64,000 nt of DNA from assembly GCF_021917145.1 (NCBI RefSeq), contig NC_061062.1:7819428-7883427 (forward strand). The letters are read 5' to 3'. The notes under the pieces are model-generated. The model made no database searches. It was given only the letters and a program-made list of their open reading frames with translations, and had not been told where the DNA came from. Positions 3,985 through 60,935 of this stretch are shown here, piece after piece. Origin of the DNA: Hypomesus transpacificus. Lineage: Eukaryota > Chordata > Actinopteri > Osmeriformes > Osmeridae. The translations under genes and the position numbers were made by a program. The stretch's first letter is position 1; every line of letters begins with the position of its first letter.

Positions 3985-5130
3985 CTCACAACCCTCCACG
4001 CATGCAATTGTCTTCTGTGTGCTAAGGGGTTTTGGAAAGTTTTTCAAGCCAACCCTGTCTAGAAAACAAAACAAAAACAAAAAAACTATGTTGCTATTCA
4101 GTAGCATCATGGGACATTCAATCAATATTTTAAACAAATGACAACTGAGGAAACCCAGTCCATCATCCGTCACACAAATATTGTGTAGGTTGCAGCAGGC
4201 ACAAGTCACCTTCGGGGCGACCAGAGGCTGGATCTCCAGGGTCCTCAAAAAGAAGCTGCATCAGCGTTTTCGAGATCCCAAAGGTGCGCTCAATAACGTT
4301 TCTTGCTTTTGCATGGTGCCAGTTGTTCTGGGCTTCAGCTCGGCCTGTTCACGTTGAAAACATATGGTGTATATTTAAGTCACCAATGTAACAATTTGCT
4401 CTGTGTGTGCGTAAAAAACTGTCAGATGGATTTATAATAGCATTAGGACATTGTGGTTATAGGTATCCTCCAGCTCTCCCAATATAAAGTATCTAGCTTG
4501 TGGATGCAGCGCCTGTTGGTACATGGGCAATCTCCATAGGACAAGTGCATCCTATACAGATCCTGTATTGCCAGTGTAGAGTACACACCCTGAAGTGTAG
4601 CCAGGGCCGGCGCGAGTACCTTCACCGCCCTAGGCAGGATGTTTCAACAGCCCCCCCACTCCATCTTGGCGCCCTCTACTGGTGGTGCGGGACAGTTAAT
4701 TAATGGACGCACTTGGGTACTTGGGGCCCCCCTCTTCATGGCGCCGTAGGCGGCTGCCTAGTTCGCCCATAGCAAACGCCGGCCCTGAGTGTAGCCTTGG
4801 CATTGCAGACGCCCTGCAGTAGCACAGATGGAGAAAACTTTCTGCTAATTTAACATTTCCTCTGTGACTCTGCGGGCAGAAGAATCTTGACGTGGCACAC
4901 GTCAATGACACCGGCAGCGCAATGCCTCATGGCCATTCAGGTGAACAATGCCAGCCTCCACCTCCTCCGTTTTCTCTGGTGTTGGGAAAGCTTTTTTGAG
5001 GATGGTCATCCTTTCCTCCATAACATTGTGAACGGTCCTGGAAACTGTGGCTACTGGCATGGCAAAGATGTCTGCAGCTACCCCTCTAGGCGTTTTCACA
5101 GACTAGCTAGTAGACCAATCTCAACTTGCG
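3985..5130 (-). pseudogene. decayed Harbinger (PIF/HARBI1-like) transposase
   Basis: Read on the minus strand, several broken frames match the order of a HARBI1-type DDE transposase. About 5099-4900 gives a helix-turn-helix-like part (VAADIFAMPVATVSRTVHNV) and then FPTPEKTEEVEAG. About 4911-4850 gives IDVCHVKI, in the place of the family's IDGTHIPI motif. About 4620-4450 gives SYGDCPCTNRRCIHKLDTLY. About 4320-4260 gives WHHAKARNVIERTFGISK, and 4230-4150 gives ACCNLHNICV, the usual C-terminal motif. At least two frameshifts and several stops separate these parts, and a MITE is inserted at 4602-4787. It is a dead copy. Family assignment is firm; the ends were not found. Confidence 0.8.
4602..4787. 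mobile_element. 186-bp hAT-type MITE
   Basis: The element has terminal inverted repeats CAGGGCCGGC and GCCGGCCCTG. Both sides carry the same 8-bp target duplication AGTGTAGC (4594-4601 and 4788-4795). An 8-bp duplication is the hallmark of hAT transposition. The inside is GC-rich and has no transposase, so the element is non-autonomous. It sits inside the Harbinger fossil, so it arrived after that copy had inserted. Confidence 0.85.
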
Positions 5131-9400: not shown

Positions 9401-12400
9401 CTGTTACCAAAGAATCTTCAGCCATCGGTTCAGATTGAGTTGAACGTAAAAGCACATGATAGTGTTGAGTTCCATTACACAATCATGTGGCTGTTCACAA
9501 AATATACTCTTTAATCTGATTTTATGGCAAGTAGTTTATCTACAAAAATACATACAAGTCAAAATAAGCATTATATATCCATTTACACAGAGTAGGACAA
9601 TGTCTGTGATGCTTATTCCTGTAATACAGCCGGTGATTAATATATTAGTTAGCTGATTTGGTTAGCTAACTTAAATGGAGTTTGTGCAAATTCACATAAT
9701 GCAGATAGCTTTTTAATCAGTAAACTTTTTAATTCATGAACATAACATAATTCACTGATCTATATTGAAAATAAAGGATCCACTGTATATTGCTTTGCTG
9801 AAAGTTGCATGCCAGAATTTAATCCATATAGAAAACCCTTCTTGGTAGAAGCTGATGTTAACTATTGTGCCAACATTGATAGTCAGCACTGCTCATTAGG
9901 GCATACATGCACTGTAATAGTGATACAAAAATCAGTTTGTAAGTGTGAAAAAAACCATCTGGCGAGCCAGGGTAGCCTAGCAAAGGAATGGAAGTCAAAC
10001 ACCTGTAGTATAGGGCAAAACTGTAGGCCACTAAACAAATGTTTGGATCGTGAGTTGTTTGTGTACCTCCGTCCTTACTGTGAAGTGATTTGCTGAATGA
10101 AAAACTGATGTGTGCAACATGTTTAGGCGGCCTATTGATCACAGGGGTGCTTTCGGCAGCAGAGTTTTTGCATAAAAGGCCTGTGATTTAACCCCATTTA
10201 TTTTTTGCTAACTCGAACAGCTAATCAAAATTATGTCCTTTTCAAATTTACACAGTGCATGGTTCTTGAGATAATCAAGCCACACACTCACACAAACAGG
10301 CAGGCACACACAAATATTCCTGGAATTATAGATATACAGTGCCCTCCAAAAGTATTGGAACAGTGAGGCGAATTCCTTTATTTTTGCTGTAGACTGAAAA
10401 CATTTGGGCTTGACATCAAATAATGAACGTGAGACCAGAGATCAACGTTTCAGCTTTTATTTCCAGGTATTTACATCAGGATCTGATGCACAACTAAGAA
10501 AATATCACATTTTGTTTGAATCCACCCATTTGTCATGTGAGCAAAAGTATTGGAACAGATATACTTAAAACATATTTAAGTGAATAAGACTTAATATTTA
10601 GTTGCAAATCCTTTGCTTTCAATAACTGCAGCAAGTCTGTGACCCATTGACGTCACCAAACTTTTGCATTCTTCCTTTTTGATGCTTTCCCAGGCTTTCA
10701 CTGCAGCCTCTTTCAGTTGTTGTTTGTTTTGTGGGGTTCCTCCCTTCAGTCTCCTCTTAAGCAGGTAAAATGCATGCTCTATAGGGTTTAAGTCTGGAGA
10801 TTGACTTGGCCAGTCTAATACCTTCCATTTCTTGCCCCTGATGAACTCCTTTGTTGTTTTGGCAGTGTGTTTTGGGTCGTTATCTTGCTGCATGATGAAG
10901 GCTCTGCCAATCAGTTTGGTTGCATCTTTCCTTAAATTGGCAGACAAAATGTTTCTGTAGACTTCCGAGTTCATTTTGCTGCTGCCATCATGTGTTACAT
11001 CCTCAATGAAGATTAATGAGCCCGTCCTAGAAGAAGCCATGCAAGCCCAAGCCATGACATTACCTCCACCGTGTTTCACAGATGAGCTTGTGTGTTTGGG
11101 ATCATGAGCAGTTCCTTTCTTTCTCCAAACTTTAGCCTTTCCATCACTTTGGTAAAAGTTAATCTTTGTCTCATCAGTCCATAAAACTTTGTCCCAGAAT
11201 TTTTGAGGTTCATCTCTGTACTTTTTGGCAAATTCCAGCCTGGCCTTCCTATTCTTCTTGCTAATGAGTGGTTTGCATCTTCTGGTGTAGCCCTTGTACT
11301 TTTGTTCATGAAGTCTTCTGCGAACAGTAGATAGTGATACCTTCACTCCTGCCATCTGGAGGTTGTTGCTGATCTCACTAACAGTTGTTTTAGGGTCTTT
11401 CTTTACAGCTCTCACAATGTTTCTGTCATCAACTGCTGATGTTTTCCTTGGTCTACCTGTTCGACGTCTGTTACTTAGTACACCAGTAGTTTTCTTCTTC
11501 TTCAGGACATTCCAAATGGTTGTACTGGCTATGGCCAATGTTTCTGCAATGGCTCTGATTGATTTTCCATCTTCTCTAAGACTCACAATTGCTTGTTTTT
11601 CACCCAAAAACAGCGCTCCGGTTTTCATGTTGTTTTCACCTCTGAATACAGTCTGCACAGACAAAACCTATCTTACCCAATCTGAACCTGAGTGTAGACA
11701 TTCAGTGGTATTTATTGATTGAATAATGTACAGTGCCCTCCAAAAGTATTGGAACAGTGAGGCGAATTCCTTTATTTTTGCTGTAGACTGAAAACATTTG
11801 GGCTTGACATCAAATAATGAACGTGAGACCAGAGATCAACGTTTCAGCTTTTATTTCCAGGTATTTACATCAGGATCTGATGCACAACTAAGAAAATATC
11901 AAATTTTGTTTGAATCCACCCATTTGTCATGTGAGCAAAAGTATTGGAACAGATATACTTAAAACATATTTAAGTGAATAAGACTTAATATTTAGTTGCA
12001 AATCCTTTGCTTTCAATAACTGCAGCAAGTCTGTGACCCATTGACGTCACCAAACTTTTGCATTCTTCCTTTTTGATGCTTTCCCAGGCTTTCACTGCAG
12101 CCTCTTTCAGTTGTTGTTTGTTTTGTGGGGTTCCTCCCTTCAGTCTCCTCTTAAGCAGGTAAAATGCATGCTCTATAGGGTTTAAGTCTGGAGATTGACT
12201 TGGCCAGTCTAATACCTTCCATTTCTTGCCCCTGATGAACTCCTTTGTTGTTTTGGCAGTGTGTTTTGGGTCGTTATCTTGCTGCATGATGAAGGCTCTG
12301 CCAATCAGTTTGGTTGCATCTTTCCTTAAATTGGCAGACAAAATGTTTCTGTAGACTTCCGAGTTCATTTTGCTGCTGCCATCATGTGTTACATCCTCAA

Positions 12401-15400
12401 TGAAGATTAATGAGCCCGTCCTAGAAGAAGCCATGCAAGCCCAAGCCATGACATTACCTCCACCGTGTTTCACAGATGAGCTTGTGTGTTTGGGATCATG
12501 AGCAGTTCCTTTCTTTCTCCAAACTTTAGCCTTTCCATCACTTTGGTAAAAGTTAATCTTTGTCTCATCAGTCCATAAAACTTTGTCCCAGAATTTTTGA
12601 GGTTCATCTCTGTACTTTTTGGCAAATTCCAGCCTGGCCTTCCTATTCTTCTTGCTAATGAGTGGTTTGCATCTTCTGGTGTAGCCCTTGTACTTTTGTT
12701 CATGAAGTCTTCTGCGAACAGTAGATAGTGATACCTTCACTCCTGCCATCTGGAGGTTGTTGCTGATCTCACTAACAGTTGTTTTAGGGTCTTTCTTTAC
12801 AGCTCTCACAATGTTTCTGTCATCAACTGCTGATGTTTTCCTTGGTCTACCTGTTCGACGTCTGTTACTTAGTACACCAGTAGTTTTCTTCTTCTTCAGG
12901 ACATTCCAAATGGTTGTACTGGCTATGGCCAATGTTTCTGCAATGGCTCTGATTGATTTTCCATCTTCTCTAAGACTCACAATTGCTTGTTTTTCACCCA
13001 AAGACAGCGCTCCGGTTTTCATGTTGTTTTCACCTCTGAATACAGTCTGCATAGACAAAACCTATCTTACCCAATCTGAACCTGAGTGTAGACATTCAGT
13101 GGTATTTATTGATTGAATAATGTATGTAATAGGACACACCTGGGCAACAAAACACACCTGTCAGTCATATGTTCCAATACTTTTGCTCACGTGACAAATG
13201 GGTGGGTTCGAACAAAAAGGTGATATTTTCTAATTTGTGCATCAGATCCTGATGTAAATACCTGGAAATAAAAGCTGAAACGTTGATCTCTGGTTTCACA
13301 TTCATCGTTTGATGTCAAGCCCAAATGTTTTCAGTCTACAGCAAAAATAAAGGAATTGGCCTCACTGTTCCAATACTTTTGGAGGGCACTGTACTTTATT
13401 ATTTGGTCATTGGTTTTGTGTGTTCCAGTGAGGCCAACAGTGATTGAGACTGCGGTGTATGTTAACAGCATTGGACCAGTTGATCCCATTAATATGGTGA
13501 GTCAAAGTCTGTTCTGTTTTAATGAAATAACCCTGATTCATTTAGCAGACACTTTTATTTGAAAGTACCGATAATAAGTGCTGCCAATCAATAACTAGAA
13601 GTGCACAGTCCTAGCAGTAATGCAGAGGTTAATGTCAAGAAACAGTATTTGGTGAAGAATATTACACTATGAAGCAACTTCAACATACCCGGGAAATCTT
13701 TTCGTTTGCTGGTTTCACTAAGCCTAACAACAGGAATTGTGCATAAGCGGCAATTGAAACCGGTGTATAACCGCTTGTGACACTGAAAACTTCCGTTTGT
13801 GACACTGAAAACACTGACAGGGTTAAACCTTAAAAAGTTACTTAAAAGTTACCTCGCTTACCCCAAATCCTGCTTTGTTGTAAAGGCCACTGATTCTAGG
13901 ATACTGTCTGTGGTAAAGTTAGGAACTAGTACCAACCAATAGGAACACAGAACCATGTTTACAGTCATAAACTATATATAAAACTATATATAACCTATAT
14001 ACATTAAACTATCATATAGTTTGAGTTAGGATTAATGAATAACACTTGTGTGGTTAAGGCTATGGTTCAGTTTACTTTAACAAAGGACTAGCACCATTGT
14101 TTTTACCCAGCCAATGTGTTCACTTTAGGTAGCTTCAATGCGGTACTGCCTCTCGCCTTTCTGCGGTCAACCTTGTAAACACAACTGACCATTTCTCAAA
14201 GAACATTTTGGCCAGCTATGCCAGGGAAGAACTTACAACTGGATTCCGGGGGTTGGTTATAATTGAACTAGTATTTTTGAACAATTTATCCCAGTTACAT
14301 ATACACAGTTACAACTTTAGAAAACACTGGGCCTCTCAATGTGTCCATTTGTTTTTGTAATTTGAGGTTCTCATGAACATCACTTAATTGTAGAGGTACT
14401 ACAATGAATGGAAATGGACAGTAATGGCATTCCTACCTACATGGCTCTGTTTGCAGGAGTACACCATAGACATCTTTTTTGCCCAGACGTGGTACGACAG
14501 CCGTCTAAAGTTCAACAGCTCTATGAAACTCTTGATGCTTAACAGCAACATGGTGGGAAAGATTTGGATTCCGGACACTTTCTTTCGTAACTCCAGAAAG
14601 TCAGACGCCCACTGGATCACTACTCCAAACCGCCTGCTTCGACTGTGGAGTAACGGGAGAGTCATGTATACGCTGAGGTAGGAGCGATACTCTGTCATGT
14701 ATTTCAATTTGTTGTGTTTTTTAAATCGTTGTTTGTGCAGCTCTAGTTTGTGCATCTGTTTTCTTTGTCATGTAGCCCTGTTTTAGGCCCCCACTGTTTG
14801 TCAAAGCAGAAGTATTGGATCTTTGTGTGTTGAAACCATTTTTGAGGAAAGAAGCACTTTACTAAAGTAGTTTAACCCACCACTGAGACTTACTTTCTTT
14901 TTGTGACAATTCTGTTTTTGTCAGGTTGACTATTAATGCGGAGTGCTACCTTAAGCTGCATAACTTTCCAATGGATGAGCATTCGTGTCCACTGGAGTTT
15001 TCAAGCTGTAGGTGTTCAAACACTCTCCCCCTCTTCCCGTTTCAATCTGTCATTTTGACTTCAGCTTCCATAACCAGCCCAGAGTGTGAGACAGGGGTGT
15101 CAGAATGGGCTAGAGTTAGAAGCTAAGGCCTTGTCCTTCCTTACCCCCAAAAAGGCCCATCTGCTTTGTCCCATACGATCAATCATCTGCTCCACCAGTG
15201 GAGAAATTAGGTCGGACAGTCCCATTCTCTAACGGACTGATGAATTATGCACCCTCCGTCCCGTCCCAAGCTGATTCATGCTGTCTGTGTCATTGTCTAT
15301 GTCAATTTGTCTCCTGCATCATGCTTCAGCTTTTCATGTCTTGTCATAATCTTAAAGCCTCAACCAATCTTTTAAGTGACTGTAAACTGCAAGGGCATCC

Positions 15401-40792: not shown

Positions 40793-43700
40793 TTATGAGG
40801 GGACATTGCTTTCCAGCCATACACCAATCTCTTCCTTGTTCCTCCTGACCCATTCAATGTTGTTCCTCACAGTCTCCAGAGCTTGCTGCCTGGGCATCTC
40901 TCCAGCACCAGCGTTAGGTGTAAGTTTAAAAAAGTGCTCCATCTGATAAAATGATCACATACAAAGGCTTCTTTGAGTCTTGACCACAAAATGAACTTAA
41001 TACAGAGATATGTCTAGAGGATATATTCTCTATAAACTATAATCCAATGTTAAAGACAAAATTATGCAAACAATCCACAGCCTTGCCAACGATACTTTAC
41101 CATTGTCTGTGAGCAAAGATTTATTACTTAGTATCTAGTAGTTAGTTTGGGAAAATATATTACTAGTATATACCAATGTCATCACCATACGACAACTTCA
41201 GGAACCGTCAACAAATCATAATCTTAATCGATTGTTAGACACGTGGAATTAGGGTAAATAGTGGAATATCATCTACATTGTTGTTACCAGAAACTATTCT
41301 TACCTGCCACAGTTGAAGTTCTGTGTTGTAGGTTGAGCTAATTCGGGTCAGCAGACGCCCCAGGTTTCTGTCATTGATGGTGTATCTATGTCAAGGAGAA
41401 TTAACATACACAACATGATGGTGTATCTATGACAAGGAGAATTAACATACACAACATGATGGTGCATCTATGATAAGGAGAATTAACATACACAACATGA
41501 TGGTGTATCTATGACAAGGAGAATTAACATACACAACACGATGGTGTATCTATGACAAGGAGAATTAATATACACAACTTGCCTCAAGATTTTTCAGTCA
41601 TATCAAGAAGCACAGTGTCTAAATAAGTTAACATTTACTCACAGATACAAAATTGATTTTGTGCATTATTACCTATTCAGATGATCTGTCTTCAGATGAG
41701 CTAAGTTTTGCATGTTGAATAAGGTTGACATAAAATGGCCTACATGTAAAAGGTAATATTAAAATGTATTATACAGTAGCTACTACTATATTAGCTTACC
41801 TCTGTACAAGGTAGTTCCAATTGAGGGTGACCCAGTCCCAGGCCATAGTTATGCCTAATTTATTCAGAGAGACGTAGCGAACCACAGTGAACAGATCCTG
41901 ACTTCTCACAATACTTTCATCTTTAGATGCCTCAAGTAACCTGTAAGATCACACACAGAATCCTCAGCCTCTTAGCATAAAGTCAAAGTATTATACATTC
42001 TTACATTTCTTTTGGATTAATAAAGTACACCGGATGGAATAGAATTGAGTTAACTAACTAGTTAGAAATAATTGTTTGTAGGCTGAATACAGAAGCTATA
42101 TCTTGCATGTTAACATTGATAGTTAAACTGAGACAAATGTTGAATTAACTTTCCTATTGTCCTGGGGTCACAATGACCTGAAATCATGTTCAAACCTAAG
42201 AAAATAATTTTAAACATTTGTCTCAGTCCATGGATTCCTGAGTAGATTTCTAAAATAACCCCAAGAGTTTAAATTTGGGGATTTCAAATAATTTTCAGTG
42301 TAGCTGCCACAAAAACAAAAAAAACGTATGTTGTTTTTTGGCCACAATGACCCAAGACAATACTGATAGGGTCTTGGTTTGAATTAGGTGTGTGTTTACA
42401 TCATATGGTTGTGATTTTGTCTTGAAATCAGTGAAATCACCAAATTCCAATTCACACACTTTCATGGGGCAGCTTATGTGTTCTCATTGGCATTGATTTA
42501 TTTGTAGATGTATCTTTGGGGGAAGAAAGAGCTTAACTAAACAGCTGATGTTGTTGATTGTTTGGTTGCACTTTACAAGTAAAGCTGTAAAAAAAAAAAT
42601 TACTTTTGTATTCAAAAGTTATAAGTTATGAGATCAATTGGACCCCAAGTCACTGTGACAGAAAGGTAATAAATGTTAGTATTTCTTAAGACAATAGGAG
42701 GGTTAACATGACATAAAAGTTTGAGAATGAAAATGTGTTCTTTACCTGTAAAGAAGAGCGACGTTTTCAACAGATGCAAGTCCATAAAGAAGCTTGTCCT
42801 TTTCTTGGGCTAAGGTTGCTTTTTGATACATATCAAACATTTGATTCCACTCTGTCTCTGTGCCGGAATTCTTCATGCCATAGCGATACACAAGCAGACG
42901 TAAGTTAACCTGCACACTGTCAAAGGATAAAAGACCACAAAGCAATGAAGGTTTTATGGGACAAACGTCAGACTTCAAACAAACAAGGTGAATACTGTCC
43001 ATGATACATTGCCACTATAGCATATTGTACCATTCGCCTCAAACTGCAGTTAAAGTGATGTGAGGTTAATTTGCTACCGGTGGTGCTCAAGCCTATTTTC
43101 TAGATGAGCTGTAGTCACATTTTCTACAAATTTGTGTATCTCTATAAGAGAAACTAAGACAAGGCTAGCTAAAGTAAAGTGCTGTGGATGCAATAGTTTA
43201 TTATATGGGTGCATCTCTGAATGTCATCATGGCCAATGACCTACTGACACCAATGTAGAGTGAGGCAGAGGTGGTTGTAAATCCCTAGTTTCCCGTTCAT
43301 AATGTTTGTGACATTCAGTGCTCCAAATTGAATATCATACTAAATTAGTAAACATGTATTAACAATGACTATTAGAATACCTGCCAAAATATATAAAGAG
43401 TACAGTATCTGTCTAGTAATGCCAGGAATCTGTGTGTGTGTTAAATTCATAATCATAAAATCAAAAAATAGCTTGACACGTACAATGGGAACGTATTTCC
43501 CTGAATGTGGTGATTATACAGAATAACATCTGTATAGTGGATCATTTTTTCATTTTTTTTTACCTTATGTTGTCTGTAATCCATTTGGCAAAGATAGCAG
43601 ATGCCTCATGGAGCATTTCTTGATCACCCATTTGACAAGCAATTCCTAAAACCGTTTCCCTCAACAACCTGTGTGAATCCAAATTAATTACAAGACAGAC

Positions 43701-60184: not shown

Positions 60185-60935
60185 CAGTGCCTTGTAAAAG
60201 TATTCAGACCCCTGACCAATGTTATCATTTTAGTGAATTATTAGTGGTCCATTTAAAATTACAACTCAAAATCATTGGTCATTGGTGACATTGGTTTAAT
60301 GGAAAATATTGTTCAACCCCCAAATATTAATATTCAGTAGAGCCACCTTTCACTGAAATAACTTCATGAAGTATTTTGGGATAAGTAATTATCAGCTTTG
60401 CACAGGGTGTCAGAGTGATTTTCTAAAATGTTCTTGGCATATTTGCTCCAGGTGGTTCAGGTTTCACACTTTTGGACCACAATTTTCTAATAGCGATACT
60501 GATTATAAATGGCATTGTGATCAGGATTTTGACTGGACCGCTATAAAAAGGATCACCTTTTTATTAGTAAACCTGTCCAAAGAAGCTTTGGACGGCAATC
60601 ATTTTCCTTCTGTATGATGAATTTCCACCCAAGAGGTTTAGCTGACTGAAACAGGTTCAAGTAATTTTCTTAATTTATTCTTTCTTTAAATGCTAACAAG
60701 ATGCCCCACCCCTGCTGACGAGAAGCATCCCCACAGCATGATGTTGCCACCATTATGCCTCACTGTAGTGATGGTCTAATGAGGCATAGACAGTGTTGTA
60801 CAGTTTGGCTTTATACTAAGTTTCAGTGTTTTAAAATAGAATGTCAAACAGAACAAAATGTATATGTACCATTTGCAATCCAGAAACATAAGATAATTGG
60901 TTAGGGGTCTCAAACCCTTTTGAAAAGGCACTCCA
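60185..60935 (-). mobile_element. decayed Tc1-like element, second family
   Basis: The left end CAGTGCCTTGTAAAAGTATT and, at the right, AGGGGTCTCAAACCCTTTTG...AAGGCACT are degraded inverted repeats. Inside, 60770-60705 on the minus strand gives NGGNIMLWGCFSSAG, the conserved Tc1 transposase segment. Most of the transposase is deleted. It differs in its ends from the Tc1 pair in gabrg1, so it is a separate, older family. Confidence 0.75.

Follow-up and report, generated by a model that had tools for sequence, protein, structure and literature searches.

A stretch of 64,000 nucleotides of the genome of Hypomesus transpacificus (contig NC_061062.1 of assembly GCF_021917145.1, positions 7,819,428 to 7,883,427 of the forward strand), referred to here as the window, contains an array formed by two left halves and a single right end of a 1661-bp transposable element (TE) of the Tc1 type. 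The array, which occupies positions 10337-13391 of the window and is recognized both in the sequence and by repeat analysis, very probably arose through the cut-and-paste insertion of one copy of the element (copy B) into another (copy A) at an internal TA dinucleotide, found at position 1393 of the element (TA 1393), followed by the loss of one 267-bp right part by collapse.

Structure of the Array

Copies A and B abut exactly at the internal TA, and the right end at 13391 is common to both (Table 1), so that the two left halves, the single right end, and their meeting at a TA, as described in the original prediction made from the letters of the sequence, are all found in the array. The junction between the two copies reads GAATAATG-TA-CAGTGCCC, while the corresponding place inside copy B reads GAATAATG-TA-TGTAATAGG and continues on to the right inverted repeat. 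The array is flanked by TA on both of its outer sides. Copy B is intact, and its left boundary lies at a TA inside a host of the same family, as in a nested guest, while its right boundary now adjoins the outer TA, the right part of the host being gone. Host A is without its right half in the window, which makes the array a reduced derivative of the full nested form.

The two units differ at three of 1394 positions (172, 1273, and 1322), the same number that had been counted previously. The transposase frames had been described as open and 357 codons long; both are open, but the length does not stand, given that the TTG start is a mechanical assignment and the first ATG yields a protein of 345 amino acids.

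Separate Ancestry of the Two Units

Copies A and B are separate copies, derived from different sublineages. Copy A carries the variants G1273A and T1322C, and copy B carries C172A. Exact matching of 29 bases, which misses the copies with a further change inside those bases, recovered T1322C at two places in the whole genome, that is, in copy A and in one element of C7, which differs from A at one of 1394 positions. The same procedure recovered C172A at 17 places, around which 10 loci were fetched. One of these (L059), at approximately 8.16 Mb on C3, or about 333 kb away from the array, matches copy B in 1661 of 1661 bases, and is inserted at its own, different TA. The others are copy B itself (L058), seven full-length copies with 1 to 11 mismatches, and one locus (L057) that matches over 729 bases. 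The presence of different sublineage variants in the two units therefore argues against a tandem duplication, and is what nesting predicts, given that one copy would have been inserted into another.

The Same Junction at a Second Locus

The search for the junction in the 437-Mb genome, at up to three mismatches, recovered four exact matches at two loci, with one in the window and three at C53, where they are spaced 1394 bp apart. There were four further matches, each with two or three mismatches, and in the two whose 40 upstream bases were read by eye (L014 and L016, leaving out L013 and L015), these bases are not element sequence.

The C53 array (L017; 325922-332033, minus strand) is 6112 bp long, and has four left halves and two right parts, with TA on both outer sides. 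Its last unit is complete, and is followed by a TA and a second 267-bp right part, which starts with TGTAATAGG. This right-to-right junction was found once in the whole genome at up to three mismatches, and the C53 array is thus the nested structure in which the second right part has been kept, that is, the unreduced form. The right end of the last unit carries T1438C, a variant common to four of 38 single copies of the element that were fetched, whereas the extra right part lacks T1438C and has an A1574T of its own. Because T1438C is present in only one of them, the two right parts come from different copies.

None of the variants of copies A or B was found in any of the C53 units, and the sequences flanking the two arrays are different, which indicates that C53 is an independent event at the same TA, rather than a composite that has moved. 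It had been proposed that the discovery of the junction at other sites would show that the composite moves. The only other locus found with the junction is C53, which shares no variant with the window array, and the genome-wide junction search found no array with the variants of the window type at another site. The C53 flanks consist of GC-rich repeats of the type GGGCCGACATCG, which resemble, by eye, satellite DNA or miniature inverted-repeat transposable elements.

More than two units were seen only at C53, the window array having two. In comparison with the majority sequence of the fetched copies, the first C53 unit carries A1146G; the second, G205T, T444C, and A1146G; the third, the same three variants and T557G; and the fourth, G205T, C406T, T444C, T557G, C1077T, C1283T, and T1438C. 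The second and third units thus have the left variants of the fourth (205 and 444, together with 557 in the third unit) and the right variant of the first (1146), and look like hybrids of the outer units produced by unequal exchange. If so, C406T, which lies between the shared variants, must be a later change or the result of conversion. A four-gamete test on the four C53 units alone revealed no pair of variants with all four combinations. When the majority state, which has neither variant, is included as ancestral, all four combinations do appear for 205/1146 and 444/1146, and it is these pairs, together with the order of the variants, that support the hybrid reading.

The Internal TA as an Insertion Target

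The element has 78 TAs, and TA 1393 is found in the context ATGTATGT. In a site-preference matrix built from 39 real insertion sites of the family, this TA ranks first of the 78 with 3-4 flanking bases and second with 5-6, and the ranks are the same when the sites of both arrays are left out (37 sites). The expected share of self-insertions at TA 1393 is 0.19 to 0.40 in the 39-site matrix. With 37 sites, it ranked first in 441 of 500 bootstraps at flanks of 3 and 4 bases, but in fewer at flanks of 5 (146/500) and 6 (134/500), with a median bootstrap share of 0.14 to 0.37. In the rest of the window, 1.5 to 4.6% of the 4629-4630 TAs score as high as this one. The preference of Tc1/mariner elements for bendable, palindromic, AT-rich TAs is described in PMC5481204 and PMC3952818. 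The agreement of TA 1393 with the target preference of the family would account for the independent origin of the same junction on two occasions.

Self-insertion was also surveyed by comparing the positions of the listed left ends and internal sites (100 of each, on C1 and C2, and without mismatch). Three-quarters of the left ends (75/100) lie at the exact expected distance from an internal site, 13 are off by 1 to 17 bases, and for 10, there is no internal site on the list within 8 kb; one end is off by +847 and one by +1663. In the +847 case, 837 bases that do not match the element separate two element pieces. The +1663 case (L069; C2:3630700-3634700) is the one complete self-insertion among the 100 left ends, in which a complete element is inserted in inverted orientation at TA 224 of its host, and both host halves are kept. 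Identity to copy B is 99.8% in the guest, and 99.1 to 99.9% in the pieces of the host. If the copies are placed at random, with no preference among sites, the number of self-insertions predicted is 4.3 for 1500 copies and 17 for 2994. Self-nesting is thus rare, but in this small sample, its frequency is close to that expected by chance. Of the other internal TAs that might be hot, TA 1438 was covered by a search, and its junction had no match at up to two mismatches.

One of the best target TAs of the element is located just inside the right inverted repeat, and repeated head-to-tail self-docking at this site (at the two loci found) might generate arrays with a 1394-bp unit, in which no left end or transposase gene is lost, and one or two right ends are shared. 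The chances that this is so are small, although if it were true, an internal docking site of this type would provide the element with an inherent means of forming tandem arrays that carry genes, and perhaps mobile units of a larger size.

Origin of the Array

The process that would account for the array begins with the insertion of a Tc1/mariner element of the G1273A+T1322C sublineage at an intronic TA. Another copy of the family, from the C172A sublineage, would then have been inserted by cut-and-paste into TA 1393 of the first, in the same orientation, which would produce, in turn, a structure composed of the left part of the host, the whole guest, a TA, and the right part of the host. The right parts of the guest and the host would now be adjacent 267-bp direct repeats, with only a TA between them, and one would have been lost when the repeats collapsed (by slippage, single-strand annealing, or unequal exchange), so that only one right end remained beside the two left halves. 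At C53, a second right part is still present, and the 1394-bp left repeats would have grown to four by unequal exchange. The original prediction had proposed the insertion of a second Tc1 element into a TA of the first, followed by the loss of the duplicated right portions. The insertion is sustained by the different sublineage variants, the unreduced form at C53, and the complete pair on C2. Because the collapse of adjacent 267-bp direct repeats leaves no scar, the loss of the right part of A, while well supported, is a step that we infer.

A number of points weigh against this account. There is no trace in the window of the right part of A itself, so that the collapse is deduced rather than seen, and with so little variation in the family, a crossover located in the right parts would go unrecognized. 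The haplotype argument rests on two variants in A and one in B, and the array is known from assembly sequence. The number of self-insertions expected at TA 1393 (from 1543 copies, approximately 33 million TAs, and a weight of 2.6 to 16) is in the order of 0.1-0.6, compared with the two found, and although this excess is mild, the hotspot alone may not fully cover it. The site-preference matrix was built solely from the sites (37-39) of the closest copies.

The composite may instead have formed once, and then been transposed, as a long element, from one of the two loci (C53 and the window) to the other, gaining or losing units. The junction is identical at the two loci, each with TA on both outer sides, and the window array has a complete pair of ends (outer left from A, right from B), an anatomy that would allow mobile forms, either short (B) or long (from the left end of A to the right end of B). 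The genome-wide searches for junctions and variants revealed no sign that either form has moved since it arose. As the variants of the two arrays do not overlap (G1273A and T1322C in A, and C172A in B, versus A1146G, G205T, T444C, T557G, and others at C53), the movement of the composite would need gene conversion from outside copies, with T1322C being present in a single C7 copy, and B matching a single C3 copy, which makes this origin very unlikely. A slightly smaller probability is assigned to hybrid-end (or alternative) transposition, in which the left end of one copy and the right end of another, both located at the same site, would be mobilized together into the internal TA, and the right segment lost as a circle. 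The principle is known from work on the P element and Ac/Ds. By reasoning, it would yield two left halves and one right end in one step, without a separate collapse. On sister chromatids, however, copies A and B would start out identical, and yet their sublineage variants differ, while an event between homologues would require each of them to have a different element at this one site; C53 also keeps two right parts, as plain insertion predicts.

The many near-identical copies of the family (1543 internal sites at up to one mismatch) leave some room for an artefact of assembly, such as a collapsed or chimeric repeat, although this is less probable again, considering that the exact A-B junction was found in no dispersed copy that might have been mis-joined except C53, whose variants differ, and that another nested structure, on C2, has an orderly arrangement that extends to the TA. 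The least probable origin is that a single element simply underwent tandem duplication, or replication slippage, and that the break fell at the TA by chance. It would account for head-to-tail units that are 99.8% identical and share one right end, but the break joins the TA exactly to the first base of the element at two loci on different contigs, the variants of A and B are found in other copies, and C53 and C2 hold unreduced nested forms. On the present data, this origin is refuted, unless the variants are errors of assembly. Cut-and-paste nesting, followed by collapse, is thus the preferred account of the window array.

Identity, Size, and Age of the Family

The TA duplication, the inverted repeat/direct repeat (IR/DR) ends, and the DD34E transposase with its helix-turn-helix (HTH) domain place the element, on the basis of its sequence, among the Tc1/mariner transposons. 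The inverted repeats are 225 bp long and approximately 94% alike, with the core direct repeat at 11 and 206 (left) and at 1440 and 1636 (right). In the numbering of the 357-amino-acid frame, the catalytic triad consists of D164, D261, and E296, and the 34 residues that separate the last two bear out the assignment to the DD34E type made in the original prediction. Pfam identified a Tc3-type HTH and a DDE_3 domain in the protein of the element. In copy B, PF01498 (E-value 3.5e-25) and PF13358 (E-value 1e-13) were both above the cut-off, and an N-terminal HTH_38, with 26.7 bits, was slightly under the cut-off of 27. The protein also aligns with SB100X, the Sleeping Beauty structure 5cr4, at an E-value of 5.6e-55. 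A weak transposase-like fragment, with 33% identity to the element protein over 51 amino acids, was observed at 60695-60847 of the window, on the minus strand.

The 38 single copies that were fetched are the closest to the query, and the sample is biased to the youngest copies. TA was found on both sides in 37 of the 38, while the other (L048) has a left TA only, its right end not being found. Most of the copies (25/38) are identical to their majority sequence, and 12 have 1 to 4 differences; the absence of a recognizable right end inflates the difference count of L048 to 26. The family is very young, and the copies without differences, together with the open frames in A and B, may be indirect signs of transposition activity at the present day.

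In the genome as a whole, there are 2994 left-type ends and 1543 intact internal sites, both at up to one mismatch, the ends being about twice as numerous as the sites. Among the ends listed, the coordinates place left-type sequence at both ends of one element in two cases (C2:10166215/10167831 and C2:11743773/11745389), and because of these two pairs, the counts of ends are not counts of elements. The paired ends may belong to short derivatives, or to a subfamily whose ends are symmetrical.

Genomic Neighborhood

The array ends 37 bases before the start of an exon, which is preceded by a splice-acceptor-like CAG, with its AG at 13427-13428. The 22-residue peptide of this exon, which had no match in Pfam, is presumably part of a GABA-A-receptor-like channel, judging by eye, and a frame at 14394-14678 matches the Pfam domain Neur_chan_LBD (E-value 2.5e-17). 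The branch point may be located in the transposon or next to it. A tandem repeat with a 41-bp unit, present in five copies with 95% matches, occupies positions 41375-41578 of the window.

Table 1. Features of the Tc1 array, in window coordinates.
Feature	Position	Strand	Evidence
Left outer TA, from the target-site duplication made by host A	10335-10336		sequence
Copy A (host): left 1394 bp of the element, up to and including internal TA 1393-1394; carries G1273A + T1322C	10337-11730		
Open transposase frame of copy A, 345 codons when read from the first ATG (357 with TTG)	10594-11628	minus	
Junction TA: internal TA of A and target of B; rank 1 or 2 among 78 TAs by family preference	11729-11730		
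Copy B (guest), full 1661 bp with both ends; C172A; identical to the copy on C3 at ~8.16 Mb	11731-13391		
Open transposase frame of copy B (DD34E), 345 codons when read from the first ATG	11988-13022	minus	
Counterpart of the junction TA in copy B, unoccupied	13123-13124		
Sole right part in the window array, 267 bp	13125-13391		
Right inverted repeat with inner and outer direct repeats	13167-13391		
Outer right TA of the target-site duplication	13392-13393		sequence

Comparison with Known Systems and Significance

The element resembles the Tc1/mariner IR/DR elements of the DD34E type, such as Sleeping Beauty, in its TA target, IR/DR ends, transposase, and preference for palindromic, AT-rich targets (as described for Sleeping Beauty in PMC5481204 and PMC3952818), although it is a separate family by sequence. 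The autointegration of Sleeping Beauty, as presented in PMC3952818, is an intramolecular process that destroys the excised copy, leading to deletion circles or inversions, with a choice of site that correlates with the deformability of the DNA in two mapped regions. The two cases are alike in that a Tc1 element targets a TA in its own sequence, but here, the second copy entered an integrated one, and the guest was left whole.

Double insertions and tandem dimers of TEs have been described as seeds of satellite DNA (McGurk and Barbash 2018, as described in PMC12628747 and PMC12368964), and in the double-insertion model, as outlined in the same two sources, the second copy is inserted into the duplicated target site adjacent to the first. 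The present case is similar to this model, so far as it is set out there, in the head-to-tail arrangement of a young DNA transposon, the site preference during active transposition, and the probable expansion by unequal exchange (in the four units at C53). It differs in that the TA is inside the first copy, the unit is 1394 of the 1661 bp, and the right end is lacking in all but the last unit. The heterochromatic h39 cluster of Bari1 in Drosophila is also composed of tandem Tc1-mariner copies, for which exchange between units has been proposed, according to PMC4877112, although it is far larger, is heterochromatic, and has a different unit, in contrast with the arrays of two and four units described here, of which that of the window is intronic.

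The tandem Helitrons outlined in PMC12628747, with many 5' ends and one 3' end, are superficially similar to several left halves with one right end. Helitrons move by a rolling circle, whereas the present arrays would be the product of cut-and-paste nesting, and a rolling-circle origin was rejected in view of the DD34E ends, the junction at a TA, and the right part retained at C53. Helitrons are not known to produce TA target duplications.

No report of this particular arrangement was found in the open-licence literature, searched through titles and the beginnings of abstracts with a few wordings, and the terminal sequence of the element had no match in the literature search. The array is best considered a clean example of a known process, that is, nested or double insertion together with the instability of repeats, which involves no new mechanism, and does not change what is known of how Tc1 elements work. 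Its value lies in the fact that a single family contains what appears to be a series of steps, from a complete pair (C2), through an array that keeps the second right part and has four left repeats (C53), to the reduced pair of the window. The variants found in near-identical copies allow the close relatives of both units of the window array to be named, and in this family, the proposed path from a nested transposon to a tandem repeat becomes directly readable.

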